From contig CP136066.1 of NCBI GenBank assembly GCA_032622095.1, positions 205,118,978 through 205,182,977 on the forward strand: 64,000 nt of DNA. The letters are read 5' to 3'. The stretch comes from Siphonodentalium dalli (taxonomy: Eukaryota > Mollusca > Scaphopoda > Gadilida > Siphonodentaliidae). Shown here piece by piece: positions 2,263 to 18,823 of the stretch. Position 1 is the first letter of the stretch, and each line of letters opens with the position of its first letter. Position numbers and translations under genes: made by a program. The notes below the pieces were generated by a model that ran no database searches, had not been told where the DNA came from, and saw only the letters and a list, made by a program, of their open reading frames with translations.

Positions 2263-2334
2263 TTTGACGTTCGGAGAAAATTGGTAGAAAAACTCAATGA
2301 CGTCGTCAACGAGGCCCGCGCACCCCATATATTT
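2263..2334 (+). promoter_or_regulatory. cassette promoter module A
   Basis: In order it holds TTTGACGTTCGGAGAAAATT, GGTAGAAAA, a CRE-like ATGACGTCGTCAACGA block, a CGCG-rich stretch and TATA-like catatattt, ending about 64 bp before the ATG at 2398. The same module precedes three other cassettes, at 3713-3641 (minus), 4273-4347 and 17696-17771. Confidence 0.75.
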
Positions 2335-2397: not shown

Positions 2398-2847
2398 ATG
2401 GATCCAGTAACGGAATTTCTCAAGACTATTGATGTGCAGTACGACCATGTTCCTGCAACAACGCAGATTTCGACTCCACTGTATGCAGGCAATATAACAC
2501 CACGGATAGAACATCAACAGGTACCAATGGTGTATCCGCGAACGGATCAACAACCAGTGTATACACCGCCGGTGAAAACACAACAAATGACTCAACCTGT
2601 TATATACCAAGTTATCAACAGTTCAAAATGGGAAGAACAGACAAAATTGTTACGGAATATTTGTCCGGAAATGAAGGATTTACGAAAGCAATTAACACAG
2701 AAACCGGTTGAATGTACAATCAACTTGAAACCTCACACGGTTGACATACCAATTGAGGTACATGGTTTCCAGAAAGAACATACGAAGCGATCAACATTTG
2801 GATCACTCGGGAAAGATTTAACAGTGATGAAGAAACAAAAGAAATGA
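2398..2847 (+). CDS. cassette A ORF, unknown 149-aa protein
   Basis: An intact ATG-to-TGA frame of 149 codons. I do not recognise the family. The N-terminal half is rich in Pro, Gln and Thr and looks disordered. The middle (about residues 75-105) is more helical and charged, and the C-terminus is Lys-rich (KDLTVMKKQKK). No signal peptide or membrane segment is visible. It is the first gene inside the left terminal repeat. The shared cassette promoter ends 64 bp upstream, and a histone-type 3' stem-loop lies 21 bp downstream of the stop. It stayed open while the core genes decayed, although its short length makes chance survival possible. Confidence 0.6.
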   Translation: MDPVTEFLKTIDVQYDHVPATTQISTPLYAGNITPRIEHQQVPMVYPRTDQQPVYTPPVKTQQMTQPVIYQVINSSKWEEQTKLLRNICPEMKDLRKQLTQKPVECTINLKPHTVDIPIEVHGFQKEHTKRSTFGSLGKDLTVMKKQKK

Positions 2848-2863
2848 TTTTTTATATTATTTT

Positions 2864-2911
2864 AAACGGCCCTTTTCAGGGCCACTTAAAATTCACGAAA
2901 GATACGCTCTG
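2864..2911 (+). terminator. histone-type 3' stem-loop and downstream element, cassette A
   Basis: GGCCCTTTTCAGGGCC at 2868-2883 forms a 6-bp stem with a 4-base TTTC loop, preceded by AAAC and followed by AC. This is the replication-dependent histone mRNA 3' signal in base order, stem length and loop. A purine-rich CGAAAGA at 2896-2902 sits where the U7 snRNA-binding histone downstream element is expected. No AATAAA lies between the stop and the stem-loop. Confidence 0.8.
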
Positions 2912-3119
2912 TATTATGCTATATGAAGATCGTATTATAGATATGAAGGGTGGTAGTGGTTTTTTTTTGTATTGTTAAGGAAGTATTCTTTGATATATAT
3001 ATATATAAATTATGTGAAGATTCTCTCCAAGTTCATGATGAATGAATTTGGTTTGAAGAAATTATGTGAACATTATCTCCAAGTTCAGGAAGAATGAACA
3101 AATCGTACAGTAGCAATTT

Positions 3120-3166
3120 CAGAGCGTATCTTTTAAAAAATTTGTGAGGCCCTGAAAAGAGCCGTT
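3120..3166 (-). terminator. histone-type 3' stem-loop and downstream element, cassette B
   Basis: On the minus strand GGCTCTTTTCAGGGCC (3163-3148) folds into the same 6-bp stem and TTTC loop, with one G-T pair. It is preceded by AAAAC and followed by AAAAGATACGCTCT (3134-3121), the same downstream element as in cassettes A and C. It lies 145-195 bp past the cassette B frame and converges on the cassette A stem-loop. Confidence 0.78.
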
Positions 3167-3306
3167 TTGGATGGTTTCAAAAGAAACCGCACGATGTGTT
3201 TGTGTTTGAATACAGCTGAAAGTTGTCATGGGAACGTCGCAACCAAATGGCACAATTGCATGGCTGGCCTGTCTGTATCCCCCAGAGCGGCAAGAATTCG
3301 TAAACT

Positions 3307-3605
3307 CTATGCCCTGAGAAGATTATGATAGACCGCTGCAGTGATGTAGCCGCAAGTCACACCATCAATCTTGATGTCCCCAGCAATCTTGTGTGTCGGA
3401 ACCACCGTGGTGGCAATCCAAAGACTTGATCTCTATTGTCCGTCATCAGCATAACGGTGTACCTGTAGATATCAAAGAAGTTATCTACAGTACCCGTTTC
3501 TGCTAAACTCAAAGCCTTCCATATCATCTGTGCTTCATCCCCAAACACACCTCTCACCAGCATCCCATCCTCCAAATAGCTTCGATACAGATCACGGTAA
3601 TCCAT
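3307..3605 (-). pseudogene. cassette B ORF, unknown, probably frameshifted
   Basis: The frame from the ATG at 3605 runs 82 codons to 3357 and starts MDYRDLYRSYLEDG. A second minus-strand frame, overlapping near 3415 and ending at 3307, looks more protein-like at its C-terminal end, so a slip near 3400-3420 probably cut a protein of about 100 residues. Cassette promoter B lies upstream (3713-3641) and a histone-type stem-loop downstream. A weak resemblance to cassette D (aromatic-rich stretches YRYTVMLM versus FTFTCATW, then an RN/DNR-x-F turn) suggests a distant paralogue. No function is assigned. Confidence 0.5.
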
Positions 3606-3640
3606 TTCGGTATGAATGAAGAATGGGGATATCTGGTTTT

Positions 3641-3713
3641 TTTTATTGAAAACGCGCAGACGTCACCGACGACGTCATGCGTTTTTTCTACCAAATTTCT
3701 CCGAACGTCAAAT
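3641..3713 (-). promoter_or_regulatory. cassette promoter module B
   Basis: Read on the minus strand it has TTTGACGTTCGGAGAAATTT, GGTAGAAAA, ATGACGTCGTCGGTGACGTC, a CGCG stretch and an AT-rich TATA position (ttcaataaaa), ending 36 bp before the ATG at 3605. Order and spacing match modules A, C and D. Confidence 0.72.
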
Positions 3714-4208
3714 CAGATGTGTTTCTTTTTTTGTCAAAAACATCATATTTCTATGAATAAAACACCGATTTGACTCGGGAAAATTTGATCTGTACCATTT
3801 TACCATTATCTCATAACATATTTCACTGAAAGGTAACTTCTACGAGTACATTTTACAACGCTAGCGTCTTCGAATTTATTCGAAGACTTTCGCTTTTGTT
3901 AAAAAAATGCACTGGTAAAGTAGCACAATTAACCAACACATCTATTTTTTCTCGGTATTATTCTAAGTTCAATGTGTACAGCAAAGGGGAGCGCCCTTTG
4001 CTTACCACACTGCCATTAGAATCCGAGAAAAAATCGATACATTGGTAAATTGTGCTCTTTTCTGTCAAAAAATCCTTCGAAGCGCTCACCTTACTCTTTA
4101 TAATGTAACACAACCTCTGGACTGATGAATCCTAACCTGGGACCTGTCACTCTGGCCCACCCCTTCACTGACTGCCACTCTGACCCATGGGTCAGAGTGA
4201 CAGCCCAG
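3657..4208 (-). repeat. internal inverted copy of the Polinton terminal/subterminal region
   Basis: From 3657 to about 4130 the sequence is the reverse complement of about 2325-1860, including the TCGAATTTATTCGA palindrome and the tttgctcggta/atctattttt block. It is oriented like the right terminus. It ends in a degenerate GC-rich tip (about 4148-4205, actctgacccatgggtcaga) where the true terminus has the nested palindrome. It may mark an old end captured by recombination or a nested second Polinton end. Confidence 0.8.
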
Positions 4209-4272
4209 GTTCTGATACCTGTCACTGACACACACCACATCGCTCGAGGTATTCTGGAAAAAAGAAACACAC

Positions 4273-4347
4273 TTGAATTGACGTTCGGGAAAATTTGGTG
4301 AAATATGCAATGACGTCGTCAGCGGCGTCCGCGCGTTTCATATAATA
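4273..4347 (+). promoter_or_regulatory. cassette promoter module C
   Basis: TTGACGTTCGGGAAAATTTG, then CAATGACGTCGTCAGCGG, a CGTCCGCGCG stretch and TATA-like catataata, 34 bp before the ATG at 4381. Same order as the other three modules. Confidence 0.75.
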
Positions 4348-4380
4348 TGGAGCGCAGTGTATCGTTTTTTTATCTTCAAA

Positions 4381-4717
4381 ATGTTCTCTAAACTAAAAAC
4401 TTCTCTGCCGATGCTCGATTAAAGCATTGGCAGAATAATGTTAGAGATTCGGAGAGCCATAAGATAGCCATTAGAGCTGGAGTTCAAGAATTCCTGCAAA
4501 GACGGAGACCCAGTCCTCCCAAGGTGTATGTGGAAACTCCAGAGTGGAACCCACGTATAAGGAGGGGGCATTATATCCAGATTTGTCTGAATATAATCCT
4601 CTAAGACCACTGCCAAGGTGGATTACCATTGAGGCAGCGAAATACGTGCGGGGTCCATACTGGAGACCCTCATACAACAAGGGAGGACTTTATCCTGATT
4701 TGTCTGAATTTTATTGA
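4381..4717 (+). pseudogene. cassette C ORF, broken
   Basis: The ATG-initiated frame stops after 13 codons at 4420-4422. Coherent coding text continues in another frame (about 4393-4602), then in a third to the TGA at 4715-4717. The last part holds two near-identical motifs, ALYPDLSEY and GLYPDLSEF, about 40 codons apart, and is rich in Pro, Arg, Trp and Tyr. At least two indels have therefore hit a small gene of roughly 110 codons. It keeps its promoter upstream and a histone-type stem-loop 19 bp after the final stop. The family is not recognised. Confidence 0.55.
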
Positions 4718-4732
4718 CTCGGCAAACAATTT

Positions 4733-4780
4733 AAACGGACCTTTTCAGGGCCACCCAATTTTTTCAAAAGATACGCTCTG
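4733..4780 (+). terminator. histone-type 3' stem-loop and downstream element, cassette C
   Basis: GGACCTTTTCAGGGCC at 4737-4752 is the same signal with one stem mismatch (A opposite G), preceded by AAAC and followed by ACCCA. AAAAGATACGCTCTG at 4766-4780 repeats the cassette A and B downstream element. Confidence 0.75.
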
Positions 4781-4822
4781 AAATTGCTAAAAAACGTAAC
4801 AAATAAATAAAACAAATAATAT

Positions 4823-4828
4823 TTTATT
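4823..4828 (-). terminator. poly(A) signal for the zinc-knuckle gene
   Basis: AATAAA on the minus strand lies 26 bp beyond the stop of the 5408-4854 gene. This gene therefore seems to use an ordinary polyadenylation signal, unlike the cassettes next to it. Confidence 0.55.
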
Positions 4829-4853
4829 CACTATTTTTAACTTTCTTGGAAGA

Positions 4854-5408
4854 TTATCGCGATAAACGTCTTTTTCTCTTTCTGCTAGACAAAGTGTTTT
4901 GCTTAATTTCAGTATCGTTAGTGCTTTTGGCTACAGCGTTAATCACTTCCATCTGCGAATCCTCCGTGTTTAGAATAGTGATTTCATCATTTGACACCTC
5001 GGTTGAGGCGTATAATTCACAACTCTCAGTTTTCACATCCGCGATCTCGTTAATTGACATCGCGGTTGAGTTCCATTGTTCCCCACTTTCAGCTTTCATA
5101 TCCGCTATATCATTAGTTAATGTCTCAGTTTGATCAATGTTAATAACATCATATGGTGTGAGATCATCGTTGTCTGATGTGTGCGTCCAAGTAGACTTCC
5201 CACGAGTAGATTCACTCAGCGTCAATGATGATTTTTTCATCTGACCAATCTTCTTTTTCGTAGTGCCATCACATTGAAAAGCCCAATGTGAACTCGAATT
5301 GCATCTAAAACAGTTACCGTATGGTGGTACCCACTTTGTATTCTTTAAAACTTCTAATGCAATTTTTCGTAAATGCTGTATGTTGTTACTCTGCAATCGT
5401 GGATCCAT
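4854..5408 (-). CDS. CCHC zinc-knuckle protein
   Basis: An intact 184-codon frame on the minus strand. Residues C33, C36, H41 and C46 form an exact C-x2-C-x4-H-x4-C zinc knuckle, which usually binds single-stranded nucleic acid. The middle is acidic, Ser/Thr-rich and probably disordered. It contains a roughly 20-residue motif repeated three times around EIADVKTES, MKAESGEQW and ITILNTEDS. The C-terminus SSRKRKRRLSR is a clear basic nuclear-localisation-type tail. It is divergent from the DNA polymerase gene and shares its 119-bp palindromic promoter, so early co-expression is plausible. A role in nucleic acid binding during replication or packaging is inference. Confidence 0.7.
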   Translation of the reverse strand: MDPRLQSNNIQHLRKIALEVLKNTKWVPPYGNCFRCNSSSHWAFQCDGTTKKKIGQMKKSSLTLSESTRGKSTWTHTSDNDDLTPYDVINIDQTETLTNDIADMKAESGEQWNSTAMSINEIADVKTESCELYASTEVSNDEITILNTEDSQMEVINAVAKSTNDTEIKQNTLSSRKRKRRLSR

Positions 5409-5439
5409 TGTGAGCGTTCGGTGCGTTATTCAGTCGTCA

Positions 5440-5558
5440 GTGAAATGACGACGTGATGAAAAAGCGCGTCACTTTTATGCTCTGACACGGACGATGACTG
5501 CGCATGTCCGTGTCAGAGCATAAAAGCGACGCGATTTTTCATCACGTCGTCATTTCAC
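5440..5558. promoter_or_regulatory. palindromic divergent promoter
   Basis: Two 53-bp arms (5440-5492 and 5506-5558) are inverted copies with two mismatches, separated by 13 bp. Each arm holds an outward TATA-like box: ATAAAAG at 5520-5526 reads right, and CTTTTAT at 5472-5478 reads left. Each also has GACACGGAC and an ATGACGACGTGATGAAAAA block related to the CRE-like element of the cassette promoters. The right arm ends one base before the polymerase ATG (5560), so that leader must be very short or transcription must start inside the palindrome. The left gene starts at 5408. Confidence 0.8.
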
Positions 5559-5559
5559 G

Positions 5560-8500
5560 ATGAAGCGCCTTGTGCCATATTCAGATAGCGAAAGCGAACG
5601 AGATAATAGAAAGAGAGTGCGACTGGATGATGACTGTAAATATTATACTATAAAAAATCTGACCGATAAATACTCGAAGAAATTTAAAACAGCATCAAAG
5701 AAATTCAACGTCACATTTCAAGAATTTCATCAACCATTTCAAACTGTTCACAGAATTTTCAAAGATCTGGTGAACAGTTTGAAAGATGAGTGTGATGCAG
5801 GACCAAAAGATCAAATGAGAATTTCCATCTTTCATCCAGGGCTAGATCTAGCGATTCACGTCCCGTTCACTGAAGCAAAAGACCTGACGGGTGAATTATT
5901 GCTTGACAACATAGAAAAAGTTGCACAATCGAACAAAAAATTCAAAATTCATGACGGACAGAAGACATTTGACATCACTGTCACGCATATGCCTACAGGG
6001 ACCGCAAGACATACCTTACATTATGGAGCATTAGGTGAATAAATTCAAATGAAAACAGTAAAGAAAAGTATTCTTCTGATTAAGAACGTAGAAGATAACA
6101 TGTGTTTTGCGAGGGCTGTCGTTGTTGGTATGTGTAATACTGACAACAAAGATACAGCTGAATGGAAGCAACAATGGAAACGGATTACGAGGCCAGCAAG
6201 ACCTCCACAACGGGAAGCTGCGAAGTCATTGTTGGATAAAGTGGGTTTATCACACGACACCAGTTGCGGGGTTGAGGAATACAAAATTATTCAGGAACAA
6301 CTATATCCTGAGTATGTTATAAAAATACATAATCAATTTGCTGACGAAGGCTTTCTTTTTCAACCACCACCAGTTGGGAAAGAAAGTAAAGTTGTCCATC
6401 TATATTTCAATGACAACCACTACGATGTGATCACAACTGTCACGGGATTCCTTGGATGTGCTTATTACTGTGAACAATGTAATGTCGGATCGAGCAACAG
6501 ATGTGATCATATATGTCCATATAAGTGTATGTGTTTCGAGGGTCAGATATGTCCCTTTGAACGATGGATACACTGCATCAAATGTAAGAGGACTTTTAGA
6601 AGTAAACGATGTCTCGACAATCATTTGAAAAAATCATCAAAACAAGACAAAACTATTTGTGATATGATACACAAATGTCAGAAATGTGGGGTTGAAATCG
6701 TCACACGAAAGGATAGAAGACATATCTGTTCGGGAACAAAGAAGTGTAAATAATGTAAGGAAATCGTCGCATCAGATCACAGATGTCATATCCAACAGTA
6801 CCAAAAGAGAGAAACACAGAAAGAAGTAAAGGTACCATTCATATTTTTTTATTTTGAATGTCAACAAGATACTGGTGTTCATATACCCAATTTTTGTGTT
6901 GCACAAACTGCTTGTGAAAAGTTTATATGTAAACCCATTGATGAAATATGCATATCATGTGATTCTGTACTGCCAAACAGAGAATATGTTTTTAAAGGTG
7001 AGAATGTATTGGAAAGATTTTGTAAATGGTTGTTTGACACCAACGACCATAAAGGTACAACATGTATTGCTCACAATGCAAGAGGTTACGATAGTCAGTT
7101 CCTCTTACATTACTTGGTGAACAATGGAAATTCAAAACCTAATGTTATTATGAATGGTAACAAAATACTGAGTTTACAATGCAATTGTGTTAGAGTAATC
7201 GATTCATTGAGTTTCATCCCAATGGCATTATCTAAATTTCCAAAAACATTCAAACTTGAAGAAATGGCTAAAGGTTATTTTCCACATTGGGCAAATACAC
7301 AGGACTTTCAGAATTACGTAGGACCATATCTAGACAAAAAATACTATAAACCTGAAATCATGTCTGAGGAAAATAGGACTTCATTTCTCAAATGGTACGA
7401 AGCTAGGGGTGGGGATATTTTTGATTTCCAAAAAGAAATTCAAAAGTATTGTAAATCAGATGTAGACATTTTAAGACGTAGATGTGGCAAATTCAGACTA
7501 TGTGTAATGGAAACTGATCAAATAGATCCATTCCGGGAGGCAATAACATTAGCTCAAACCTGTAACCTTGCATGGAGAAAAAATTCATTACCAGAGAATT
7601 CTCTAGGTATAATTTCAGACGCTGGATATCCACAAGCGCGTAAATTTTCAATGAAAGCAATTCGATGGCTACGGTACATTGCTACAAAACAAAATGTAAA
7701 CATAAAACATGCTTTATATGGTGGTGAAGTTAAAATAGGCAGACATTTTGTTGATGGTTATCATGCAAAATCAAGCACAGTGTATGAAATGTATGGGTGT
7801 TTTTTTCTTGCTGTCCTACTTGCTATCCAGATAAAACCGCCGAAACCCATACAGTAATATAACAATGCATGAATTGTATGACAAAACAATAGAAACGGAA
7901 ACTGAAATCAAAAGCTTGGGATGCAAATTAATATGCATCTGGGAACATGACCTGGATAATAAATGTAAAGCAGACACAAATTTAAAACAGACTATGGATC
8001 AATTCTATTTGCACCAAGACCCAATTAAACCAAGGGAAGCATTATTTGGTGGCAGGACTAATGCTCTAAAATTATATCATGAAATAGAACCAACATCTAA
8101 ACAGGAAATAAAATATATTGATATATGCAGTTTGTATCCTAGTGTGAATAAATATAAGGAGTACCCTCTTGGCCATCCTGCAATTCTAAGTCAGGAACAA
8201 ATAGGAGACATCAAATCCTACAAAGGACTCATTAAATGCAAAGTATTACCTCCAAATAAATGGTACATTCCAGTGCTACCGATCCACTGTAATAACAAAA
8301 TGATATATACATTGTGTAAAACTTGTGCAGAAAATGAAAGTGGACAGTGTAGTCATAAAACCGAACAGCGTGCTTTAGTTGGAGTTTGGACGCATGTAGA
8401 ATTGTTCAAAGCAATAGAATTGGGTTACCAAATTCTGGAAGTGTATCAAGTTTGGCATTGGACTGAGTGGTCGGTCAAAGTATACAGGGATTACATTGAT

Positions 8501-9319
8501 AAATACCTCAATTAAACAAGAAGCAAGTGGATATCCAAATTCTGTTAAAAGTGAAGAAGATAAAGATAAATACATTAAAGATTATTATGAGGTTGAAGAT
8601 ATCAAACTTGAAAAAGAAAAAATCGAAAAAAAAACCAGGACTCCGCCAGTGTGCAAAATTAATGATAAATTTCATATGGGGAAAAAATGCACAAAATAAT
8701 ATTCTTACTAAAACTGAATATATCTCAGAACCATCCAGATATTTGGAACTATTAACTGATAAACATATCACCGTCAAAGCAGTTGAAATTTTTGAACAGG
8801 ATAAATTCATATTATTCAGCTATGAAAATAAAACCGATATTATAGAACCACATCCATCTACCAATGTAGCTGTTGCATCATTTGTCACAGCATATGCACG
8901 CTTGGAGTTGTATAAAGTTTTAGAAAAACTCCAAGATAGGGTGTTGTATTTCGACACCGATAGTTGTATGTATATTTTCGATCCAGAAAAAGAAAATATC
9001 AAAACCGAAGACAGCTACCTTGGTAAATGGACTGATGAACATCCGGATGCTAAAATCATGAAATTTGTAGGGTTAGGACCGAAAAATTATGGATATCAGT
9101 ACATGAAAGATGGTGTCGTAAAATCTGTATGTATGGTCAAGGGTATCACTCTGGATTAAAACTAAGCAGCAAATAAATTTTCAACGTGTCATAAACTATC
9201 CATGCAGAATTAAACACACAAAGAACCGAGAAGTAATTAGTGAAGAGCAAACAAAAACATTCCGATCTGTGTACACCAAACGACTTGTTGTGGGTGAATA
9301 CAACACAATTCCTTATTGA
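5560..9319 (+). pseudogene. polB: Polinton protein-primed DNA polymerase B, multiply broken
   Basis: This would synthesise the element's DNA from a terminal-protein primer. The N-terminal domain covers 5560-6042. After an in-frame TAA (6040-6042) the same frame continues 6049-6753, with Cys/His zinc-ribbon-like pairs. After a second in-frame TAA (6751-6753) it runs to about 7800. Exonuclease motif II is HNARGYD at 7072-7092 and motif III is YCKSDVD at 7447-7467. Polymerase motif A DICSLYPSV starts at 8120, motif B (AKLMINFIWGK) at 8653, and motif C YFDTDS at 8947-8964. Frames change near 7805 (T run), 7855, 8508, 8633 (A run) and 9150. The C-terminus ends ...NTIPY at a TGA at 9317-9319. In exonuclease motif I the first Asp is Tyr (codon 6850-6852). 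Two stops and at least five shifts make it non-functional. Confidence 0.92.
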
Positions 9320-9914
9320 TGGAATTGATGTGTTACCAGCAGAGATGCTTTTGAAAATTTATAATAACTTGATCGAAATGTCAAAAATGGATCAAGAAAT
9401 CAAACAAGAACTTAAGCAAACTTGGTTTTTGAGGGAAAGTAAAATTATAGTGCAGACTTTGCTGAACGGACATTTCTCAGAGGGGCAGAGTCGACTGAGA
9501 TGTTTGATTGAGAGATCAGAATTTGAAACTGATTTCTTAATGGATATATTGGATCAACTGTTTTCAGATTATTGGATATTGCATGGTGCTCCTAAAAACG
9601 AAATAAACGAAATTCGTGAATTAGTTGAAAATAATTTTATTCGTTTTGCTGAATATCAAGACAGGATTCTCAATGAAAAAACTTTGAAATTCGAAGAGGT
9701 GACGAGAATATATGGATTCATTATTCTCCGAGAACCATGTACAATTTTCACTGCTGAAGAGTTATTTGAAGAAAAGGTGTCTTTGGATTATATTGTAAAA
9801 ACCACTAGACCTATTCCAGATTTAGATAATGAACTCATATGTACATTTGGAATAATCTGGAGTTATGGTGACTTTTCATTAAAAATAAAAAAGGTTGATT
9901 CCGAAAAATCCTAA
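9319..9914 (+). CDS. F-box-like Polinton protein
   Basis: The long frame 9240-9914 has no ATG before 9345; it is merely open through the polymerase tail. An ATG at 9319 overlaps the polymerase stop (TGATGG) and would join this frame after a one-base slip near 9335, so the real start is probably 9319 with one indel. The N-terminus contains VLPAEMLLKIYNNL, which fits the Leu-Pro-x-Glu-x-Leu-Leu-x-Ile pattern of an F-box (the SKP1-binding part of SCF ubiquitin ligases). The rest (about 190 aa) is mostly helical and acidic with no motif I recognise. F-box identity is tentative because it rests on 14 residues. Confidence 0.45.
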
Positions 9915-9945
9915 TCAGTCTTACATGATCTGTCTCAGGGCAAAC

Positions 9946-10595
9946 ATGGACGAATCATTGTTGTTCAAACATCCCTGTAACATTTTCATATCGGGGCCAA
10001 GTGGTTGTGGTAAAACAGATTTTGTTAAGAAATTAATCGAATATAAAGATGATTTGTTCAAACCTGTTCCAAACAAAGTCGTTTGGTGTAACAAAGAATG
10101 GCAAAATACCTATAGTCAGATGCAAGAATTTCACAATATTCAATTTATAAATGGAATACCAGATGATGACAATGAACTTGTCGATGACACAGACTTACCG
10201 CACCTCGTCGTTTTGATGACATGTTAGGTGATAAAGATGAAGAAAAAATTATGTTGTAGTTTACAAGAAAAGAACATAACAGAAATACGTCTGTTATTTA
10301 CATAACCCAAAACATGTTTCAGAAATCTAAAGCGAGTAGAACTTTGAGTTTGAATGCACATTACATGGTATTATCTCAAAGTGTGCGTGATAAAGGCCAA
10401 ATAAAAATTCTTGCCTCTCAAATGCAAATACCTCATTTAATGCAAGCATATGGTGATGCAACTTTAACCAATCATGGTTATTTACTACTCGATTTTCACC
10501 CAAAAACGGATACATCGTTGAGACTTAGAACTGATATTTTCCATCGCTGGCTCACAAATGACGATCGAGGTGCGGTAATATATTCATCGGTATAA
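9946..10595 (+). pseudogene. genome-packaging ATPase, FtsK/HerA type, broken
   Basis: The family pumps DNA into preformed capsids. The start MDESLLFKHP at 9946 is the likely one, because a Phe-Lys-His-Pro lead-in directly precedes the P-loop. Walker A GPSGCGKT lies at 9994-10017. A one-base loss inside the Walker B region (hydrophobic strand then Asp-Asp, about 10205-10220) shifts the frame and ends the first part at 10227. In the new frame an in-frame TAG (10257-10259) precedes the sensor-like YITQN and the C-terminal half to 10595. Length would be about 215 residues, normal for Polintons. It is non-functional as read. Confidence 0.88.
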
Positions 10596-10631
10596 AGATA
10601 AGTGTATCAACATAATATTTTATTTCCAATC

Positions 10632-11194
10632 ATGGAGTCGCATGAAGCAGTCTTGAGTGTATTTTCGACTATCGCTAAATTAATACTTGATGATCACTTA
10701 AAGCTTACAAAGCAGACACGAACATTCCTGCAAAAACACAAAAAAGAGCTGAAGAAACTCATATCGATTCAAAAAAGAAAATACTTTTAAAAACTGGTGG
10801 AGGTGGTTTTCTCGGTGGAGTTTTGATCAGAAGTCTTCTCAGACAAAAAGAAAATAAATCAATTGCACGAGTTAGATCAAATAGAGTAAATGCTACTCGA
10901 GTAAATTCTACGATTGCACAGCGAGCTAGCACAGTCAGAGTAAATTCTACAATTGCACAGCGAACTACTCCAGTTAGAGTAAATTCTACTGGATTAAATT
11001 CTACATTTGCTAGATTTCAACCACTCAACGATAATGGTCGGCAATCAATTCCATCAATTCAAGAAGCAGAACATTACCCGTTGGTTCAACGATACTCAAA
11101 AATTATGAATCTTTCAAACCCATCGAAATTAGCTTTGATGGAATTTGATCGTAATTTTAATAAATGTAAAGTAAAAAGTAATTCAGTCATTTGA
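10632..11194 (+). pseudogene. small basic Polinton protein with tandem repeats, frameshifted
   Basis: Start MESHEAVLSV at 10632. The first frame stops at 10788-10790, just after an A run (10768-10774) where one base was probably lost. The next frame carries KTGGGGFLGG at about 10791-10820, a Gly-rich hydrophobic patch. It then holds three tandem 14-17-residue units beginning RVNST (about 10880-11000) and a C-terminal tail to 11194. Basic helix followed by a Gly-rich hydrophobic patch also occurs in the next gene, so the two may be paralogous. I know it only as a Polinton-associated type of unknown role, possibly a minor virion component. Confidence 0.6.
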
Positions 11195-11217
11195 CATTCA
11201 ACTGTTGAAGAGTAAAG

Positions 11218-11559
11218 ATGGCGAAAAAAACTCCACTGATTAAAAAATATGGTAGTTTTGTAATGGCTATGAATCAGGCACCAACTCATTTTCGGAAAAA
11301 AATGATAGAAGATGCCACAAAGAGAGTGATTGATTGCATGCCAGAATGCTGTAAAAATATTTTAAAAGGCAATGTAAAACTAACAGTAGCTCAGAAGCGC
11401 AAACTTCGTCCGAGGTGTAGACACCTCAGAGAACTTGCAAGTAAATCAACATCTGGGAAACGAAAAAAACTAATTTTAAACCAGAAAGGAGGTTTTTTAC
11501 CACTTCTTATGCTAGCACCATTGCTTGGTAAAGCAGTCGCTGGAATACTTCGCGGTTAA
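11218..11559 (+). CDS. small basic Polinton protein, intact
   Basis: An intact 113-codon frame with ATG at 11218, 23 bp after the previous gene. It is strongly basic (KRKLRPRCRHL, GKRKKL) with a C-terminal Gly-rich hydrophobic segment, QKGGFLPLLMLAPLLGKAVAGIL, that could contact membrane or bury in a capsid interior. This layout is common among short Polinton ORFs close to the ATPase. The role is unknown; DNA condensation or minor capsid are guesses from charge and context. Confidence 0.65.
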   Translation: MAKKTPLIKKYGSFVMAMNQAPTHFRKKMIEDATKRVIDCMPECCKNILKGNVKLTVAQKRKLRPRCRHLRELASKSTSGKRKKLILNQKGGFLPLLMLAPLLGKAVAGILRG

Positions 11560-11561
11560 AC

Positions 11562-12760
11562 ATGAAGAAAATGGTCGCTGTTCCCTTCAAAATGTTGGAT
11601 AACATTAAAAAATGGAGAATGAGTCTAACTAATCCGAAATGATCACCTAATCCTGAAATTACGAATGTTTCAAAACTAAGCAGAGAATTGAATTCAGTTT
11701 CTGATCAAAATTTGTCAGAATCTGAGAAGGTTAAATTATATGGTACAACTTTGCACAAATTGAAAACTTCTAAAAAATCAGTTAGAGCTATTTCAGCCCC
11801 GAAAACAGAACAACCATTTAATCATCATCATAGAGATGTGCTAGAAAGTATTCCGTTAAAGATGAGAAGAAAAGCTAAACAATTTTTACAACTGATTTCA
11901 AAACATCCACAAATGAAGTTTGATGAACATGGACAATTAAAATATGGTGAAAAAGTTATTAGAGGATCAAATATTGTTGATCTCCTCAATGATATTGTAC
12001 GACAAAGAAAAGGTTTCGAACCAACAGGTTGTCAAAGCTTTTCACAAGGTTTGAGCGAGCTTAAAGGTACTCAACCCGATAAAACTCCTCTCAATTACTA
12101 TTTCAATGGCTTCGGGGGTCAAAAATATTTGATTCGAATCGAGGAAGTCACCCATCAAAGCTCAGATTTGTTAGATATCGATTTTAGAAATCTATTATTT
12201 TTCATTATCGGGAATACTATCTGGCCCAGAACTCAGTCAAAATTGCGTTAAAATTACCACTTGATTTTAGAGTTATTCATCCTTGTCTGTTTGAATAGAT
12301 TTGGAGTACATATCCAGAGCAGATTACGGCAGTTATTAGTACACATCTCGAGAACATAACAAATTTGAAAAATCAATATCTAATAACTCTGAGCTTTGTT
12401 TGATGGGTTCCTCGACTCGAATCAAATATTTTTTACCCCCAAAGCCAAAGAAATAGTAATATAGGACCCTCTGATCGGATTGTTGTTGTTGGAATCTGTT
12501 GAGATGGGGACCCTCTTTACGGGTTGAGTACCTTTAATGTACCTCAAGATTTTGTAGGGAACAGAAACTGCTGGCTTTGGATTAAAAAACATTTGAAAGA
12601 TGATTCAGATGATGATTTTGAAACTTCGGTACAAAGCATAACACCAAAACAATTTGATTCTCATCGATTCACACCAATGAAAGGTATAAAAGCAAGACAT
12701 TCAAAAACTAAAATAGCAAAGGGTATTAAAACAGAAAAATCACAATGGGATCAATACTAG
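11562..12760 (+). pseudogene. Polinton ORF of unknown function split by a stop and a MITE
   Basis: The ATG at 11562 opens MKKMVAVPF..., an in-frame TGA lies at 11640-11642, and the same frame continues to 12060. A 473-bp TTAA-flanked insertion (12061-12533) then interrupts it. Coding text resumes at 12534 in the frame expected for precise TTAA removal and ends at a TAG at 12758-12760, overlapping the integrase ATG by 16 bp. The protein is hydrophilic and Lys/Ser-rich with a central segment around FLQLISKHPQMKFDEHGQL. I recognise it only as a Polinton ORF in the usual place before integrase. The apparent 187-codon frame ending at 12251 has MITE sequence as its C-terminus. Confidence 0.7.
12061..12537. 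mobile_element. TTAA-flanked MITE inside the Polinton
   Basis: The ends AGGTACTCAACCCG and CGGGTTGAGTACCT are inverted repeats flanked by TTAA at 12061-12064 and 12534-12537. An inner inverted repeat (tttgattcgaatcgaggaa versus ttcctcgactcgaatcaaa) strengthens the palindrome. A second copy sits in a STYX intron at 51176-51635 and a partial copy ends at 31459. TTAA duplication is typical of piggyBac-type transposases, but no transposase is encoded. Confidence 0.85.
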
Positions 12761-13828
12761 ATGAACAGTTATCTAAAATTTTCTATAATCCGATGAAAGT
12801 TGGAAGTTATGGCGGTGTAAAGAAGCTTTTTGATGAAGCGAAAAAGCAAAATAAAAAAATTAAACTCATAGATGTGAAGAAATGGTTTCAAGGTCAGTCG
12901 ACATATACTTTACACAAACCAATAATTCGAAAATTCCAACGTAGAAAGACTGTTGTAGCTGGGATTGATATTCAATGGCAGGCAGATTTAGCTGATCTTC
13001 AGAATTTGAAAAAACATAATGATAATTACAGATATCTGTTGTGTGTGATAGACGTTTTTTCAAAATTTGCGTGGGTATTGCCAATCCACGATAAATCTGG
13101 ACAAACTGTGATCGAATCATTCAGGAAAATTTTGAAATCTTCAAAACGTAAACAAAAATCGTTTCAAGCTGATAAAGGTTCTGAATTCAAAAATGAAAAG
13201 TTTTTGAAATTCTGCGATCAGAAAGCATTCATTTCTTCACAACTGAGAATCCAGAGACTAAAGCAAGTATTGTCGAACGATTTCAAAGAACTTTAAAAAC
13301 TCGTATGTGGAAGTATTTCACACACAATAAAACTTCAAGATATATTGATGTTTTATAGCCCCTAGTCGATTCTTACAACAATAGTTATCACCGCAGCATA
13401 AAATCGAAACCGTCGGCAGTTACTTTGAAAACTGAAGCTGAAATTTCCAAAAATCTATATGGAACAGGGAATAAAAAAGGAAAATCTACACTGAAAGTGG
13501 GTGACTTGGTTCTATCAACAAAACCAAAAGAACATTTGAAAAGGTTTATTTACCAAACTGGACTCGTGAAATTTTCAAAGTTGATAAAATTTGCAAAACT
13601 AATCCAATAACATACAAAGTTTCTGATCTTGATGGTGAAGAGATTGGTGGATCATTCTACAAACATGAAATCCAGCATATAAAAGACAGTAAGGTGTATG
13701 AAATAGAATCAGTTATTGATAAAAGAACGAGAAGAGTGGGTGGTAAAACAGTAAAAGAAATTAAAGTTCATTGGCTTGGATATCCAGAAAAGTTTGACAG
13801 TTGGATCCCAGCTTCAAAGTTAGTATAA
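12745..13828 (+). pseudogene. int: Polinton integrase (rve, DDE) with chromodomain, broken
   Basis: This would insert the linear element DNA into the genome. Catalytic Asp 1 (WQADLAD) is at 12985-12987 and Asp 2 (ADKGSEF) at 13171-13173. Glu (IVERFQ) is at 13275-13277 in a shifted frame, which gives a D-D-35-E spacing. The first frame ends at 13296. Frame 3 then carries the Glu and has an in-frame TAG at 13356-13358. Another shift near 13540 leads to the C-terminal part. From about 13697 a chromodomain (YEIESVIDKRT...VHWLGYP..FDSWIPASKL) ends the protein, as in many Polinton integrases that target methylated-histone chromatin. At least two indels and one stop make it inactive. Confidence 0.92.
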
Positions 13829-13841
13829 AACAGAATTTACC

Positions 13842-14099
13842 ATGTTGAAAAATCATTCAGATTCAATTAATCTCGATGAACCATCACAATTTAAATTATG
13901 TGGTGAAAAAGTTGCTAAGAACCAAGTCACCTACTTCACGCAGATAATTATTATTTATATCATAATAATTACATCTATTGTACACATTAGTATCCAGAGC
14001 GCAAACAAAGAATTGTGGCTTATTCTTCTAAGTAGTTCTCTAGGTTATATTCTACCAACACCTGCACTCAAATTATTGAAAAATACTGAGAAAAAATGA
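13842..14099 (+). CDS. small two-span membrane protein of Polintons
   Basis: An intact 85-codon frame. After a polar N-terminus of about 35 residues come two hydrophobic spans. The first is IIIIYIIIITSIVHIS (about 35-52) and the second is LWLILLSSSLGYILP (about 58-73). A short basic tail, KLLKNTEKK, follows. Many Polintons have a similar short protein between integrase and capsid genes; its role is not established. The stop overlaps the next start (ATGA at 14096-14099), which supports the reading of both genes. Confidence 0.75.
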   Translation: MLKNHSDSINLDEPSQFKLCGEKVAKNQVTYFTQIIIIYIIIITSIVHISIQSANKELWLILLSSSLGYILPTPALKLLKNTEKK

Positions 14100-14943
14100 A
14101 TTTATTCTACATAACTCTCATGAGTGATAGTTAAATTTCACTTTACCCAGCCAACTCACAATGTTGTTTCGCAGTGAAATTACCAAAAACCATACATATT
14201 GATAAAGAGCTTTGGGAAGTTGCAATGGTTGAACTAATTGTACCCTCAGAAACATACAACATTATTGGAGATGCCTGCAAAATAAAAATAAAAACTTCTG
14301 TTCCAAGAATTTTACAATATTTGAATAAGATACCAATGAGTGATGTAGTAATTTCAAAACCAGAAAATGGTATAGAATTAAAAATACCAGAAGGAGCATA
14401 TTCTGGTGGATCACATTTGACAGATACAATTCAAGGTGTAATTGATAGTACAGTAAGCAGCATGATTCCAGAACTGAAATTCGAATTCGGATATTCCAAA
14501 GCACAACAACGAGTTAAAATTTCAATCAATAGTTATACCAAAGTAGGTATTGTACTCCCCAGAGCTCTTTTGGATAAACTTGGTTACAGAACAGAATCAA
14601 ACACTGTCACATTTGCTACTCCTTCAATAACATTTCCATATCGAGTTGATTTAAATGCGGAGCATAATCAATTGTTTGTTTATTCTGACATTGCTGATTA
14701 TACAATTCTTAGTGATGTTGAAGCACCGATATTACGAGTGACAACATTCGAGAGTAAAAGAATACATGATGGTAAACATATTAAGCATGACTTCAAAACT
14801 TACATTATGTACCAGTATCAAAGTCTAGCTTTGATACCATAAATGCATATATAACTGGTGTTAGTGGCAAACCAATTCAGTTTATTGGTGGAAAGTCTAT
14901 GGTAAAGTTGCAATTCCGACGCGGAGGTAATTTGTATTTATGA
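14096..14943 (+). pseudogene. minor capsid (penton-type, single jelly roll) protein, broken
   Basis: The start MNLFYITLMSDS at 14096 overlaps the previous stop. An in-frame TAA at 14132-14134 follows, then the same frame continues FAVKLPKTIHIDKELWEVAMVEL through 14842, in the family's usual order: a short Phe-Tyr-rich start, then a lipid/strand-like Trp-Glu-Val-Ala segment. A frameshift near 14828 moves the C-terminus (GKPIQF...KLQFRRGG) to a frame ending at 14941-14943. Length would be about 280 aa. Assignment to the minor capsid of Polintons rests on N-terminal pattern and position directly before the major capsid. The track-style start at 14174 is GTG and is not the real start. Confidence 0.8.
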
Positions 14944-15277
14944 TGATCCCCGTGTATAGAGGCGTACCTAGACAGTATGGAAATGGAATTGGTTCACTAT
15001 TCAAATCTGCAATGAGAACAGTAGTACCGTTTCTAAAACCTATTGGTCAGATTGCTAAACAACAAGTATTCAAGCTTGGACTTGCTGCAGCTTTGGGAAA
15101 CAATAAAGAAAATATCAACACCTTTTGGGGTAAACAATAAAGAAAATATCAACACAAAATGGCATAAATAGATCATCGCGACCTTTGAAAAATCAGTCTT
15201 CTCGCAAAGGAGTTAGAAGTAAGTCCATTAAAACGCCTGTAAAGAAATCAAAACGATCTCTCGATATATTTGATTAA
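14940..15277 (+). pseudogene. pVI-like small virion protein, disrupted by a 34-bp duplication
   Basis: Start MMIPVYRGVPRQYGNGIGSL at 14940 overlaps the previous stop. The Tyr-Arg-Gly and Gly-Ile-Gly-Ser-Leu-Phe lead-in followed by a long amphipathic helix is typical of a short protein preceding the major capsid in Polintons and compared with adenovirus pVI. Its frame ends at 15140. A 34-bp tandem duplication (copies of aaacaataaagaaaatatca at 15098 and 15132) shifts the frame. The basic C-terminal tail (SKSIKTPVKKSKRS) is read in the following frame to the TAA at 15275-15277, just before the major capsid ATG. Confidence 0.72.
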
Positions 15278-15279
15278 TC

Positions 15280-16583
15280 ATGATGATGCAAAATGGATCA
15301 TGCGAATGCAGCAAGTCCGAGTTAGATGCTTCTGATGTTCCACAAACAATGACAACGATGTTGGAATCACAATGGATAGAACATCACCCGATTAGCTCTT
15401 TGAATAATTCCGCACCAGTAGAATTTGTAATTCCACCTCAAACTGAAAAATGGACAGATGTAGATCAATCATATTTGTACCTGAAATTCAAAATCACAAA
15501 AGCAGTTGGAACAAACTTGGTTGATGGTACTGATGAAATTGCGCCTATTAACAACTTTTTCCATAGCATGCTCAGTAGTATCGATATTTACCTAAATAAC
15601 AAACTTGTAATGGCGAACGGAGATACCTATCCTTATCGAGCCTACATGGAAAATCTCTTAACTTATTCTCGTGAATGTAAAGAAAATCAACTTGCCGCAC
15701 TAGAAATGTGGTACCCCGACACCGCTAAACAGTTCACCGAAAACATTAAACTGGTGGTTATGATGGATTGAAATCTCGCCAAGCAATCATAGCAGGTAGT
15801 AAAACGGTAGAATTGTGTGGTCGTTTACACACAGATATATTTCTACAAGAGAAATACTTACCAAATGGAATTGAGATAAGAATTCGTCTCAATAGAGCGA
15901 ATCCAAAATTCTCTTTAATTGGTCAGGCCAACGGAAAAATAGTATTTGAAACGGCAGTTTTCAATGTTCGTGCAATTACGCTGATGCCAGTAGTAGCAAA
16001 TAACTTGAACCAAACAATAATACAGAAAAATATGAAAATACCGATTAGAAGAGTTGAAGTAAAAACATTCCCTATTGGTGCAGGGCTTAGATCAAAAATT
16101 GAAGATCACCTTTTTCAAGGACAATTGCCAAAGTGACTTTTCATTGGCTTGGTATCAAACAAAGATATGAATGGCGATATTGAAACGAACCCATTTCATT
16201 TCCAACACTTCAATCTGAAAAAACTTGAAGTTAGTCAGGACGGACATATCATCCATAACCGACCATTTGAACCAAACTTTGAATCAGAACAATGCCTAAG
16301 ATCTTATTTATCACTGTATCAGTCTTCCGGTATGTTTGGACAAAACAAATCCTTTGGTTTGAATCTCGAAAAATACATGAATGGTTATTGTTTCTGGGGT
16401 TACGACCTCACACTTGACCAAGGAGCAGAGGAAGTACATTTGCATCCTATTAAAACCGGTAACATAAGGTTAAAGCTTCAGTGTGCTGCAGCTCTAGCTT
16501 CAGTGATCAACGTGATAGTCTATGCTGAGTTCGATAATCAAATTGAAATCAACAGTTTGAGAGAAATAATAACAGATTATTAA
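15280..16583 (+). pseudogene. major capsid protein (double jelly roll), broken
   Basis: It begins with the Cys-x-Lys-Ser-Glu-Leu-Asp motif (ECSKSELDASDVP) and continues with PVEFVIPP, NNFFHSMLSSIDIYLNNKLV and YPYRAYMENLLTY, all typical of the N-terminal half of Polinton major capsids. A frameshift near 15760 moves the protein to another frame (15768-16136). A TGA at 16134-16136 interrupts that frame, which then continues without shift to 16583. Total length would be about 430 aa, normal for the family. Family role: hexon-like double jelly-roll trimers forming the icosahedral shell. Defects are one indel and one stop. Confidence 0.9.
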
Positions 16584-16587
16584 AAAC

Positions 16588-17045
16588 ATGGATGAATTGC
16601 ATTTGGAGGAAAAAAATTGAGACTGGAAGTTGGAGGACTCGATTTCATTCCATATGTTTCTATCCTTGACAAAGTTCGGAAAACTTTCGAGAAATGTTTC
16701 GTTCATGAAATACAAAATCAAATTTCAAAAGAAGTGACACTCAATTGTGAATGATGTAAAATAGATCATACAAGTCAGACACGACATTTACTTTGTCTTT
16801 GGACACCACCTATACAATGGGTAGATATGTTCATTGATATAGCACTACTTAAATTGAACATCTACTGAGTTATGGAACAATGGTATCCAGAAATAGAATC
16901 ATTTACACCACAAGAGAAATTTGAGGCATTCAAACTTTGGAAAGATATAAAGGAAGTTGTTCATGCAAACTGTAACTAATTTAATTCGTTTTTTGTTGAC
17001 TTGTGGTCTGAAAAAGTTAAAAAATACTACGAAGATGAACACTAG
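16588..17045 (+). pseudogene. Cys/His-rich Polinton ORF, broken by stops
   Basis: ATG at 16588 opens MDELHLEEK. A frameshift in the A run at 16611-16616 leads to a frame that continues to 17045. That frame is interrupted by TGA at 16752-16754, TGA at 16866-16868 and TAA at 16977-16979. The first TGA falls inside a Cys-x-x-Cys-x-x-Asp-His-x-Ser-Gln-x-x-His-x-x-Cys signature (about 16746-16795), which looks zinc-binding. The C-terminus contains ESFTPQEKFEAFKLWKDIKE. A short Polinton protein with this Cys/His pattern is familiar to me but has no known role. The stop overlaps the protease start by 11 bp. Confidence 0.6.
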
Positions 17046-17517
17046 CGAACTTCAGCATATACTAGACAAATCATCCTACCTATGTTCATTGTATGGTGTG
17101 GTGTGTGCAAAAGATCAGTTACCACACGAGAAACCTCATCATGTAAAAGCATACATAGTAAATACACATAAGTCAGAAAAGCCAGGAGAACACTGGTTTG
17201 CAATTTTCTTCAATGGGAATATTGCAACATATTTCGATTCGTTTGGGATACCAGTTATTGATAAATATATCAAATCATTTATTCAAAGAAATTCGATCGA
17301 ATGTAAAATAAACGTTGGGCGGTTTCAACATCACGGCACAAACGTGTGTGGTATCTACTGTATATTTGCTTTACATTTCTTGAAAAGCGGATATGGTATA
17401 AAAGTATTAGTTGAAATGAATTTTTATGGTGACTACTTCAAAAATGATAGAAAAGTATTTGATTGGTTTCATAGAAATATGTTGATTGTTAATGATGAAA
17501 TGATTTACCAAATGTAA
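17035..17517 (+). CDS. PRO: adenain-like cysteine protease (Ulp1/C48 fold), intact
   Basis: An intact 160-codon frame with ATG at 17035. Catalytic residues appear in adenain order: His in GEHWFAIFF (codon 17191-17193), Asp in TYFDSFG (17236-17238), Gln in RFQHHG (17336-17338) and Cys in TNVCGIYC (17347-17349). The family processes virion proteins during maturation. The protein is slightly shorter than usual for Polinton proteases, so a longer start upstream was possible, but the frame upstream has only a weak ATG at 16957 inside the preceding gene. It is the only core enzyme without a visible defect. An AATAAA lies 84 bp downstream. Confidence 0.9.
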   Translation: MNTSELQHILDKSSYLCSLYGVVCAKDQLPHEKPHHVKAYIVNTHKSEKPGEHWFAIFFNGNIATYFDSFGIPVIDKYIKSFIQRNSIECKINVGRFQHHGTNVCGIYCIFALHFLKSGYGIKVLVEMNFYGDYFKNDRKVFDWFHRNMLIVNDEMIYQM

Positions 17518-17600
17518 ATTATGTTCATTGCATTACCAATTATTGATTGTAAATATGATAATTTCATGATCAGTTGTAAATATGTTGATTCTTAATTCAA

Positions 17601-17606
17601 AATAAA
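17601..17606 (+). terminator. poly(A) signal after the protease
   Basis: AATAAA followed by a T/G-rich stretch (gttatgttgttg, tgtctgttttt). It probably ends the rightward core transcript and contrasts with the histone-type ends of the cassettes. Confidence 0.55.
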
Positions 17607-17695
17607 AGTTATGTTGTTGAAAAACAGTGTCTGTTTTTAATGATCGTCTTCGGCATTGTCGATGAAGATCTTAATTCACCAAAAAAGAAAACACA

Positions 17696-17771
17696 TTTGA
17701 AATATCATTCGGGAAAATTGGTAGAAAATCACAATGACGTCGCCAACGACGTCCGCGCGTTTTACATATAA
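17696..17771 (+). promoter_or_regulatory. cassette promoter module D
   Basis: TTTGAAATATCATTCGGGAA, then AATTGGTAGAAAA, a CRE-like CAATGACGTCGCCAACGACG, CGTCCGCGCG and TATA-like catataac, 35 bp before the ATG at 17807. Element order and spacing are those of modules A-C, though the first block is mutated (TATCATT in place of GACGTT). Confidence 0.75.
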
Positions 17772-17806
17772 CAAACATCCAGTTTAGCGCATATCATTTC
17801 TCCACG

Positions 17807-18238
17807 ATGGAATACCCTAAAACTGATCTTGGATCTTATGTCAGAGCCATCCGTGTATCGGCCCCGAGGGACATTGCGGTGTGGGAGACCATTTCCTGGG
17901 CAGTGTATGGTGCAGGTGAAAAGTTCTGTGAACTATTCACTTTTACCTGTGCAACATGGGCTCGCAATCCTACACTGTTCAGTGGACAGGAGACAGAACA
18001 CATCGAATGGCTTGGGACAACAGGTGTCTTACTTGCGGTGGTGGCAACCCTTCTGCAGAGAAAGCTCGTGTTTTGGAAAAAGAAAAAGCAGTACAGATTA
18101 GACGTATCCCCATTGAAGGGTGTGAGTATACCGCAAGGTATATTTCCACCTCTCATCGAGGGTTCGCTTGTGTTTCGGGAGTTGGATCAAGAGGATGGAT
18201 TTGAGTTCCTAAAGACCCCTTATCCACTTTTCTTGTGA
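17807..18238 (+). CDS. cassette D ORF, putative single-span membrane protein
   Basis: An intact 143-codon frame. One hydrophobic segment, TTGVLLAVVATLL (about residues 68-80), is followed by a basic stop-transfer-like run (KLVFWKKKKQYR), which suggests one membrane span with the C-terminus in the cytosol. The N-terminal 65 residues are rich in Trp, Phe and Cys (WETISWAVYG, FCELFTFTCATW). The C-terminal part is Pro-rich and probably loose. I recognise no family. It is the last gene before the right terminal repeat, has the shared promoter 35 bp upstream and a histone-type stem-loop 14 bp after the stop. Weak similarity to cassette B is noted there. Confidence 0.6.
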   Translation: MEYPKTDLGSYVRAIRVSAPRDIAVWETISWAVYGAGEKFCELFTFTCATWARNPTLFSGQETEHIEWLGTTGVLLAVVATLLQRKLVFWKKKKQYRLDVSPLKGVSIPQGIFPPLIEGSLVFRELDQEDGFEFLKTPYPLFL

Positions 18239-18246
18239 TCTAACGT

Positions 18247-18275
18247 AAAACGGCCCTTTTCAGGGGCCACCCAAA
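18247..18275 (+). terminator. histone-type 3' stem-loop, cassette D
   Basis: GGCCCTTTTCAGGGGCC at 18252-18268 is the same stem-loop with one extra G in the 3' arm. It is preceded by AAAAC and followed by ACCCA, the usual histone cleavage context. The AAAGATACGCTCT downstream element of the other cassettes is not visible here. It lies 14 bp after the cassette D stop. Confidence 0.7.
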
Positions 18276-18296
18276 ACCTGCTATCAGATGGCTCTT

Positions 18297-18817
18297 GCAT
18301 GCACATTTCACAGCGCTAGCGTCTTCGAATTTATTCGAAGACTTTCGCTTTTGTTAAAAAATGCACTGGTAAAATAGCACAATTTACCAACACATCTATT
18401 TTTGCTCGGTATTATTCTAAGTTCAATGTGTACAGCGAAGGGGAGCGCCCTTCGCTTACCACACTGGCATTAGAATCCGAGGAAAAATCGATACATTTGT
18501 AAATTGTGCTCTTTTCTGTCAAAAAATCCTTCGAAGCGCTCGCCTTACTCTTTATAATGAAACACAACCTCCGGACAGACCCTGGGCGGGACACTCTGGC
18601 CCACCCCCTCGCTGCGCGACACTCTGTCCCGGACCAGTGTCCCGCAGGATTTGGTTTGGATTTTTTTCTGGCCCACCCATGCACCTCGCTGTCCAGAGTG
18701 TCCCGCAGCAAGGTGGGTGGGCCAGAAAAAATCCAAACAAAATCCTGCGGGACAATCTGGCCCGGGCCAGAGTGTCGCGCAGCGAGGGGGTGGAACAGAG
18801 TGTCCGCCAATACTACT
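18297..18817 (-). repeat. Polinton right terminal inverted repeat
   Basis: Inverted counterpart of 1602-2135. It includes the tcgaatttattcga palindrome, the AT-rich block and the GC-rich nested palindrome (18584-18806), and ends ...ccaatactact at 18817 before catgta. Confidence 0.92.
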
Positions 18818-18823
18818 CATGTA
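18818..18823. repeat. Polinton target-site duplication, right copy
   Basis: catgta, identical to 1596-1601. Confidence 0.93.

Follow-up and report, generated by a model that had tools for sequence, protein, structure and literature searches.

How do the outermost genes of a Polinton come to finish in what resembles the 3' end signal of replication-dependent histone mRNAs, and is that signal the one used by the host? The question is raised by an element in a 64,000-nucleotide stretch of the genome of the scaphopod Siphonodentalium dalli (contig CP136066.1; this entire stretch is referred to as the window), for which an earlier note had proposed that four genes next to the element ends finish in a histone-type stem-loop. 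All four sites are indeed present:

2868..2883, + strand: stem-loop 1, histone-type, perfect, 20 nt past the gene 1 stop
3148..3163, - strand: stem-loop 2, histone-type, GGCTCT..AGGGCC with one G.U pair
4737..4752, + strand: stem-loop 3, histone-type, GGACCT..AGGGCC with one broken pair, followed by ACCCA
18252..18268, + strand: stem-loop 4, histone-type, with an extra G in the window copy, followed by ACCCA

Each stem-loop lies on the sense strand of its end gene, with a distance from the stop codon of 20, 13, 20 and 13 nt for genes 1 to 4, respectively (the gene 2 stop was placed by eye). The motif GGCCCTTTTCAGGGCC, allowing up to three mismatches, was counted in the window and compared with 100 shuffles. 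It was found at five places versus 0.19 expected, and none of the 100 shuffles gave five, which rules out a chance origin of the stem-loops. No Rfam family matched anywhere in the 64-kb window at the curators' threshold. When the scan was relaxed to E ≤ 10, the Histone3 model (RF00032; gathering score 34) matched the four stem-loop places and no other, the remaining 34 Rfam matches belonging to other families. The covariance check proposed in the earlier note yields E-values from 5.8e-6 to 0.032, with every bit score under the gathering score: stem-loop 1 (2863-2908) scores 33.8 bits (E 5.8e-6), 0.2 bits short of it, followed by stem-loop 3 (4732-4777; 26.8 bits, E 0.0023), stem-loop 2 (3168-3123, minus strand; 24.5 bits, E 0.017) and stem-loop 4 (18247-18293; 23.8 bits, E 0.032). 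When folded as RNA, stem-loops 1 and 2 retain the 6-bp stem and 4-nt loop. The third is weakened, and the fourth moves to a 3-nt loop. As for the flanks, the claim of AAAC before the stem stands at all four sites, while ACCCA follows only at 4737 and 18252, the other two sites reading ACTTA and TCACA. Host histone genes at these sites are ruled out, as the sites come after Polinton genes.

The fifth motif match (21986-22001, GGTCCTTTTCAGGACC) forms a perfect 6-bp hairpin with a TTTC loop within a basic open reading frame (ORF) outside the Polinton. It is without histone flanks, has no RF00032 match at E ≤ 10, and is probably a coincidence.

Likeness to host histone 3' ends

The host assembly comprises 2.227 Gb in nine contigs, in which PF00125 has 150 scored matches out of 520 candidates, located on contigs C2, C5, C7, C8 and C9. 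The 3' ends of the host H3 genes read acaaacGGCCCTTTTCAGGGCCaccaaaatttcactAAAGATAAACTCTaaaaATTGCT, that is, the 16-mer GGCCCTTTTCAGGGCC, identical to that of the Polinton, and then AAAGATAAACTCT 14 nt later; AAAG is found at 14 nt and a TTGCT box at 32 nt. The H3 repeat carries a second stem-loop with the same 16-mer (...cacAAAGAGAAACATTttaaaaATGCT). With RF00032, the host H3 end scores 41.6 bits and this second stem-loop 33.4 bits, also under 34; the 33.8 bits obtained in the window are therefore not weak, being comparable with what the histone repeat of the host itself attains. Alignment by blastn of window gene ends with host H3 gave 87% identity over 47 bp for gene 1 and 83% over 59 bp for gene 3.

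The earlier note had also reported a common purine-rich element downstream of three of the genes. This element, AAAGATACGCTCT, is present as exact copies after genes 1 to 3, with a degenerate version after gene 4:

2898..2910, + strand: downstream element AAAGATACGCTCT of gene 1, exact, 14 nt past stem-loop 1
3121..3133, - strand: downstream element AAAGATACGCTCT of gene 2, exact
4767..4779, + strand: downstream element AAAGATACGCTCT of gene 3, exact
18285..18296, + strand: degenerate downstream element CAGATGGCTCTT of gene 4, placed by eye, AAAG absent

Allowing up to three mismatches, AAAGATACGCTCT occurs 19 times in the window versus 16 expected, which is not above chance; its weight therefore rests on the exact copies and their position. 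We compared eight distinct Polinton ends, four from the family of the window (family A; A1-A4) and four from the second family described below (family B; B1, BA, B3 and BC). In this test, which was designed after the sequences had been seen and is descriptive, with A2/A3 and B1/B3 as similar and non-independent ends, AAAG starts 13-15 nt past the stem-loop in seven of the eight, and a WTGCT or TAGCT box lies 29-33 nt past it, again in seven of eight. Two host ends have AAAG at 14 and 15 nt and the box at 32 and 34 nt. Each box arises in about 2-6% of single-sequence shuffles. When the 41 nt downstream are compared with H3 without gaps, the similarity reaches P < 0.05 (uncorrected for the number of tests) for A1, A2, A3 and BC, as well as for L063, a tandem array discussed below.

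Conservation in a second Polinton family

Family B is represented by loci L061 and L062, with a DNA polymerase B (PolB)-like ORF that is 52% identical over 552 aa, at the PolB N-terminus, to that of the window. Its homologues of gene 1 (24% identical to family A, E 0.005), gene 2 (29-33% identical to family A copies) and gene 3 (31-46%) retain the stem-loop 16/16, with RF00032 scores of 40.1, 41.8 and 40.2 bits. Nucleotide matches between gene 1 and L062 consist of pieces of 21-47 bp, at the stem-loop regions. A further family B gene, gene C (L062, 5602-5676, minus strand; about 63 aa by eye), bears two tandem stem-loops. The first of these is letter-perfect, yet scores 22.2 bits; the second, GGTCCTTTTCAGGACC, has the paired change GGTCCT/AGGACC and scores 37.1 bits, and the downstream element is present only after this second stem-loop. 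Across L062 and the family A locus L064, five of eight Polinton sites reach the gathering score of 34 (41.8, 40.2, 40.1, 37.1 and 38.0 bits); the others score 33.8, 33.6 (in L064) and 22.2 bits (the first stem-loop of gene C). L064 has full stems on genes 1, 3 and 4, L067 has one on gene 4, and those of family B in L062 are full as well. The window variants of stem-loops 3 and 4 look like decay, since perfect versions exist in L064 (both) and L067 (stem-loop 4).

Genome-wide, GGCYCTTTTCAGRGCC yields 1314 + 1356 = 2670 matches, histone genes included, with none for the reversed control and about four expected by our arithmetic from uniform base composition. The exact 34-mer at the gene 1 end occurs 109 times. 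We fetched the first 30 of 100 listed motif places, all on contig C1 and corresponding to 12 genomic places. Each of the 30 matches a Polinton gene end, 28 of family B and two of family A, which rules out a gene-free host repeat, the outcome against which the earlier note had asked that its proposal be checked. Four of the 30 (L025-L028) coincide with the reference locus L062. Identity to L062 is 99% or higher for 16 of the remaining 24 loci of family B, indicating that this family multiplied recently.

Genuine host-type histone 3' end signals hence stand on a defined class of Polinton genes and are conserved across diverged families. The sequence side of the earlier proposal is supported, with host H3 genes having the same stem-loop, a near-identical downstream element and equal spacing, and with family B keeping both.

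Locus L063 (C1, from 64.26 Mb on) is a tandem array with a 5.6-kb period in which a histone-type stem-loop (33.9 bits) recurs at 2828-2873 and 8441-8486. It is accompanied by AAAG (again 13-15 nt past the stem) and TTGCT boxes, lies about 25 nt past an ORF stop, and is located upstream of a reverse transcriptase ORF (RVT_1; Penelope-like by eye). Judged by these features, L063 may represent another kind of mobile element that uses a histone-type signal. Viral contigs contain 101 matches of the 16-mer, 12 of which passed a loose flank score of 4, none with both histone flanks; a stricter stem-loop pattern gave no matches there. Relatives of the PolB were not found in viral contigs either by single protein or by alignment.

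The end genes and the use of the signal

The genes that carry the signal, and a promoter-like block upstream of each, are as follows:

2398..2847, + strand: gene 1, intact ORF, 149 aa, no Pfam match
3177..3605, - strand: gene 2, interrupted in the window copy, open part 3357-3605
4382..4716, + strand: gene 3, interrupted in the window copy; the family B protein aligns by tblastn at 4422-4517 and 4634-4711
17807..18238, + strand: gene 4, intact ORF, 143 aa, aligning with gene 2 and its family B homologue
2244..2331, + strand: promoter-like block of gene 1, partly an arm of an inverted repeat
3654..3731, - strand: promoter-like block of gene 2, partly an arm of an inverted repeat
4258..4344, + strand: promoter-like block of gene 3
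17699..17768, + strand: promoter-like block of gene 4

In the window copy, neither gene 2 nor gene 3 has an intact ORF. The final stop of gene 2 (3177-3179) was placed by eye in the frame of the match to the family B protein, 13 nt before stem-loop 2. Gene 4 aligns with the family B homologue of gene 2 at 24% identity. A four-way alignment of the 124-146 bp upstream reveals that the promoter-like block is common to all four genes, with 48 invariant columns including ATGACGTCG and GCGC; near-identity with the host histone signal is accompanied by a common upstream block. The blocks of genes 1 and 2 are not independent, because the same block is an inverted-repeat arm (I9). AATAAA or ATTAAA occurs within 300 nt past the stop of one of the four stem-loop genes (gene 3) versus seven of ten other ORF ends, a weak contrast given that many of the compared ORFs are broken.

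Structure prediction for the family B homologue of gene 2, run together with two relatives, gave a low-confidence model (mean predicted local distance difference test score, pLDDT, of 58.8). Its ten top PDB matches by Foldseek are all OTU domains, with a best E of 4.8e-3 and none at or below 0.001. The motif expected of OTU domains seems, by eye, to be without a catalytic cysteine in L062, L064 and window gene 4. Protein homologues of this OTU-like end gene were not found among 29 candidates at E ≤ 0.001 or 885 at E ≤ 0.1. From their position adjoining the inverted repeats, the end genes may be comparable to the early genes of adenoviruses.

Going by these sequence features, we consider it likely that the Polinton end genes rely on the host's processing of histone 3' ends. 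From the signals we infer processing without poly(A) addition, together with its timing, co-regulation and benefit, along the following lines. Host SLBP would bind the hairpin, and the purine-rich downstream element would pair with host U7 small nuclear RNA (snRNA), the candidate pairing elements being AAAGATACGCTCT, AAAAGGTTACTCTTT and the host H3 element. SLBP and the U7 small nuclear ribonucleoprotein (snRNP) would direct cleavage about five nt past the hairpin, leaving an mRNA that ends in the stem-loop and not in poly(A). In PMC6303110, cleavage is placed 5 and 7 nt past the stem-loop, at ACCCA, and genes 3 and 4 have ACCCA at this position. Such mRNAs would be made mainly while the SLBP/histone machinery is active, in S phase and the early cleavage divisions. 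Stem-loop and common promoter-like block together would make the end genes one co-regulated class, apart from the polymerase, the integrase and the other core genes, which are without the stem-loop signal.

Several observations weigh against this interpretation. All four window stem-loops fall under the gathering score, the best by 0.2 bits, and two of them, stem-loops 3 and 4, are altered. Among family A copies, none with a perfect stem-loop 2 was seen, the L064 copy having failed the motif scan. The gene 4 end fails both the AAAG and the TGCT-type box and has no normal downstream element. In the gap-free comparison of the 41 nt with H3, four of the eight Polinton ends (A4, B1, BA and B3) show no significant similarity. 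For gene 1, the two families match weakly (24%, with E 0.005 obtained in a tiny database). Duplication accounts for part of the upstream blocks of genes 1 and 2 and for part of the 3' ends of genes 2 and 3, so that the four stem-loop cases are not independent. An AATAAA lies 86 nt past the gene 3 stop. Finally, host U7 snRNA was sought in the genome by Rfam and three patterns and was not found. The best Rfam score was 26.8 bits against a gathering score of 34, and none of the five matches (L170-L174) looks like U7. Two of the patterns gave 155 places (reversed control 29) and 139 places (control 11), mostly one dispersed repeat among the 100 listed, and the third gave 21 places versus 23 in the control. 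Eleven short candidates (L175-L185) were rejected on account of a low Rfam score or the lack of a matching 3' hairpin.

The dispersed repeat contains TTCTCTTTTCATCAATTTCTCTAG (for example at C1:59128481-59128504) and mimics the U7 5' end and Sm site; all three fetched copies are without a 3' hairpin.

Whether the signal is used is a separate matter from what the element gains by it. Mobile elements need germline expression, and histone-type mRNAs are stored in oocytes and early embryos. The same sequence evidence would accordingly fit a benefit other than S-phase coupling, be it stable, translatable mRNAs lacking poly(A) in oocytes or early embryos, or escape from poly(A)-dependent surveillance; this is possible, if somewhat doubtful, and does not exclude the course set out above. 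A signal that is not used at all would be expected if a host histone 3' end had been copied into a Polinton ancestor and were functionless now. The 87% identity over 47 bp with host H3 would agree with such a passive capture, as would the sharing of one genome by histone gene clusters and Polintons. It is rendered improbable by the 16/16 retention of the stem-loop on three homologous genes at protein identities of 24-46%, by the occurrence of the signal on five different end genes (1, 2/A, 3, 4 and C), and by the paired change that gene C shows in its second stem-loop.

Two further roles would leave SLBP-dependent processing aside. Genes 1 and 2 are convergent and the sites are close to the Polinton ends, as might be expected of a hairpin that acts at the DNA level, or that serves as a generic terminator where genes converge or close to the ends. 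A palindrome, however, needs no TTTC loop, AAAC flank, host-spaced downstream element or sense-strand placement in both orientations, and gene 4 and the family B gene 2 homologue lie outside any convergent pair of stem-loop genes; we regard this role as very unlikely. We give equally little credence to the hairpins being decoys that titrate host SLBP or U7 snRNP and disturb histone supply, with the mRNAs ending elsewhere. High copy number (2670 exact motifs, including histone genes) and the tandem double stem-loop on gene C would suit a decoy, but the measured sites lie 13-22 nt past the stop (gene 2 and gene C by eye) and have the downstream element, like a processing signal.

Should the end genes indeed depend on host histone processing, mobile virus-like elements with histone-type ends would break a histone-only rule: PMC6303110 treats the histone stem-loop as an end confined, among metazoan protein-coding mRNAs, to those of histones. 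It would provide a way for an integrated DNA element to couple gene expression to the host replication phase, and natural non-histone substrates of SLBP and U7 from which the rules for the stem and downstream element could be read from evolution. We are evenly divided on a broader proposal, namely that the end genes form a regulon on host histone processing and are the first non-histone mobile-element mRNAs of this class, with L063 maybe a separate uptake and the signal consequently a general resource for selfish DNA acting in S phase or the early embryo. No paper that joins Polintons or Mavericks to the histone stem-loop, to its binding protein or to histone mRNA was found in the open-licence full-text literature. 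The earlier note knew of no description of a Polinton with this signal, and among the matches listed in the open-licence literature (titles and abstract starts) none joins Polintons or adintoviruses to it; the word 'stem-loop' does not occur in the available part of PMC11071296.

The element and its relation to known systems

The identification of the element as a Polinton agrees with its target duplication, inverted repeats, PolB and integrase:

1596..1601, no strand: left target-site duplication CATGTA
18818..18823, no strand: right target-site duplication CATGTA
1602..2137, + strand: left terminal inverted repeat, starting AGTAGTATTGGCGGACAC
18296..18817, - strand: right terminal inverted repeat
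5608..9159, + strand: DNA polymerase B, a core gene, interrupted, without stem-loop
12745..13296, + strand: integrase (rve), Pfam PF00665, E 7e-11

The Polinton spans 1602-18817, bounded on both sides by the 6-bp duplication CATGTA. The inverted repeats pair 1602-2137 with 18296-18817, and AGTAGTATTGGCGGACAC is found at both termini in opposite orientation. A third, partial and inverted copy of the terminal repeat is internal to the Polinton at 3722-4125, and genes 1 and 2 consequently lie between two facing terminal-repeat copies. The PolB is in three pieces, two matching PF03175 (E 4.4e-21 and 8.8e-22) and the third scoring 25.4 bits against a cut-off of 25.8. A packaging ATPase piece scores 20.1 bits with the Pfam model Adeno_IVa2 (cut-off 21). 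The protease ORF and two capsid-region ORFs, labelled by eye only, have no significant Pfam match. With PolB, gene 2 and gene 3 all interrupted, the window copy of the Polinton is broken.

Between a divergent CCHC-type gene and the PolB region, a 53-bp inverted repeat with a 13-nt spacer (5436-5561) contains TGACGACGTGA-like boxes and is probably a bidirectional promoter; its Rfam matches to miRNA families are all under the gathering scores. Elsewhere in the window, an ORF at 38458-39576 has a GIY-YIG domain (E 1.2e-8) and is likely a Penelope-like element.

The family B gene 2 homologue shares its predicted fold with the OTU-domain deubiquitinases OTUD3 and DUBA/OTUD5, from which it differs in having no Pfam match, a low-confidence model and a seemingly missing catalytic cysteine. 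With Polintons/Mavericks and adintoviruses, the element has in common the 6-bp target duplication, terminal inverted repeats, a PolB of the protein-primed kind and a retrovirus-like (rve) integrase. The family B PolB (L062) matches 27 proteins, the top named one being from Mercenaria mercenaria. What sets the element described here apart from these relatives is a group of end genes that share an upstream block and finish in histone-type 3' ends. Those ends share with metazoan replication-dependent histone mRNAs the 6-bp GG..CC stem, the UUUC loop, the AAAC flank and a purine-rich downstream element 13-15 nt past the stem, as well as short ORFs without visible introns, and their letters are nearly those of the host H3 genes. 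They differ in that the Polinton genes are not histones, and are part of a mobile element.

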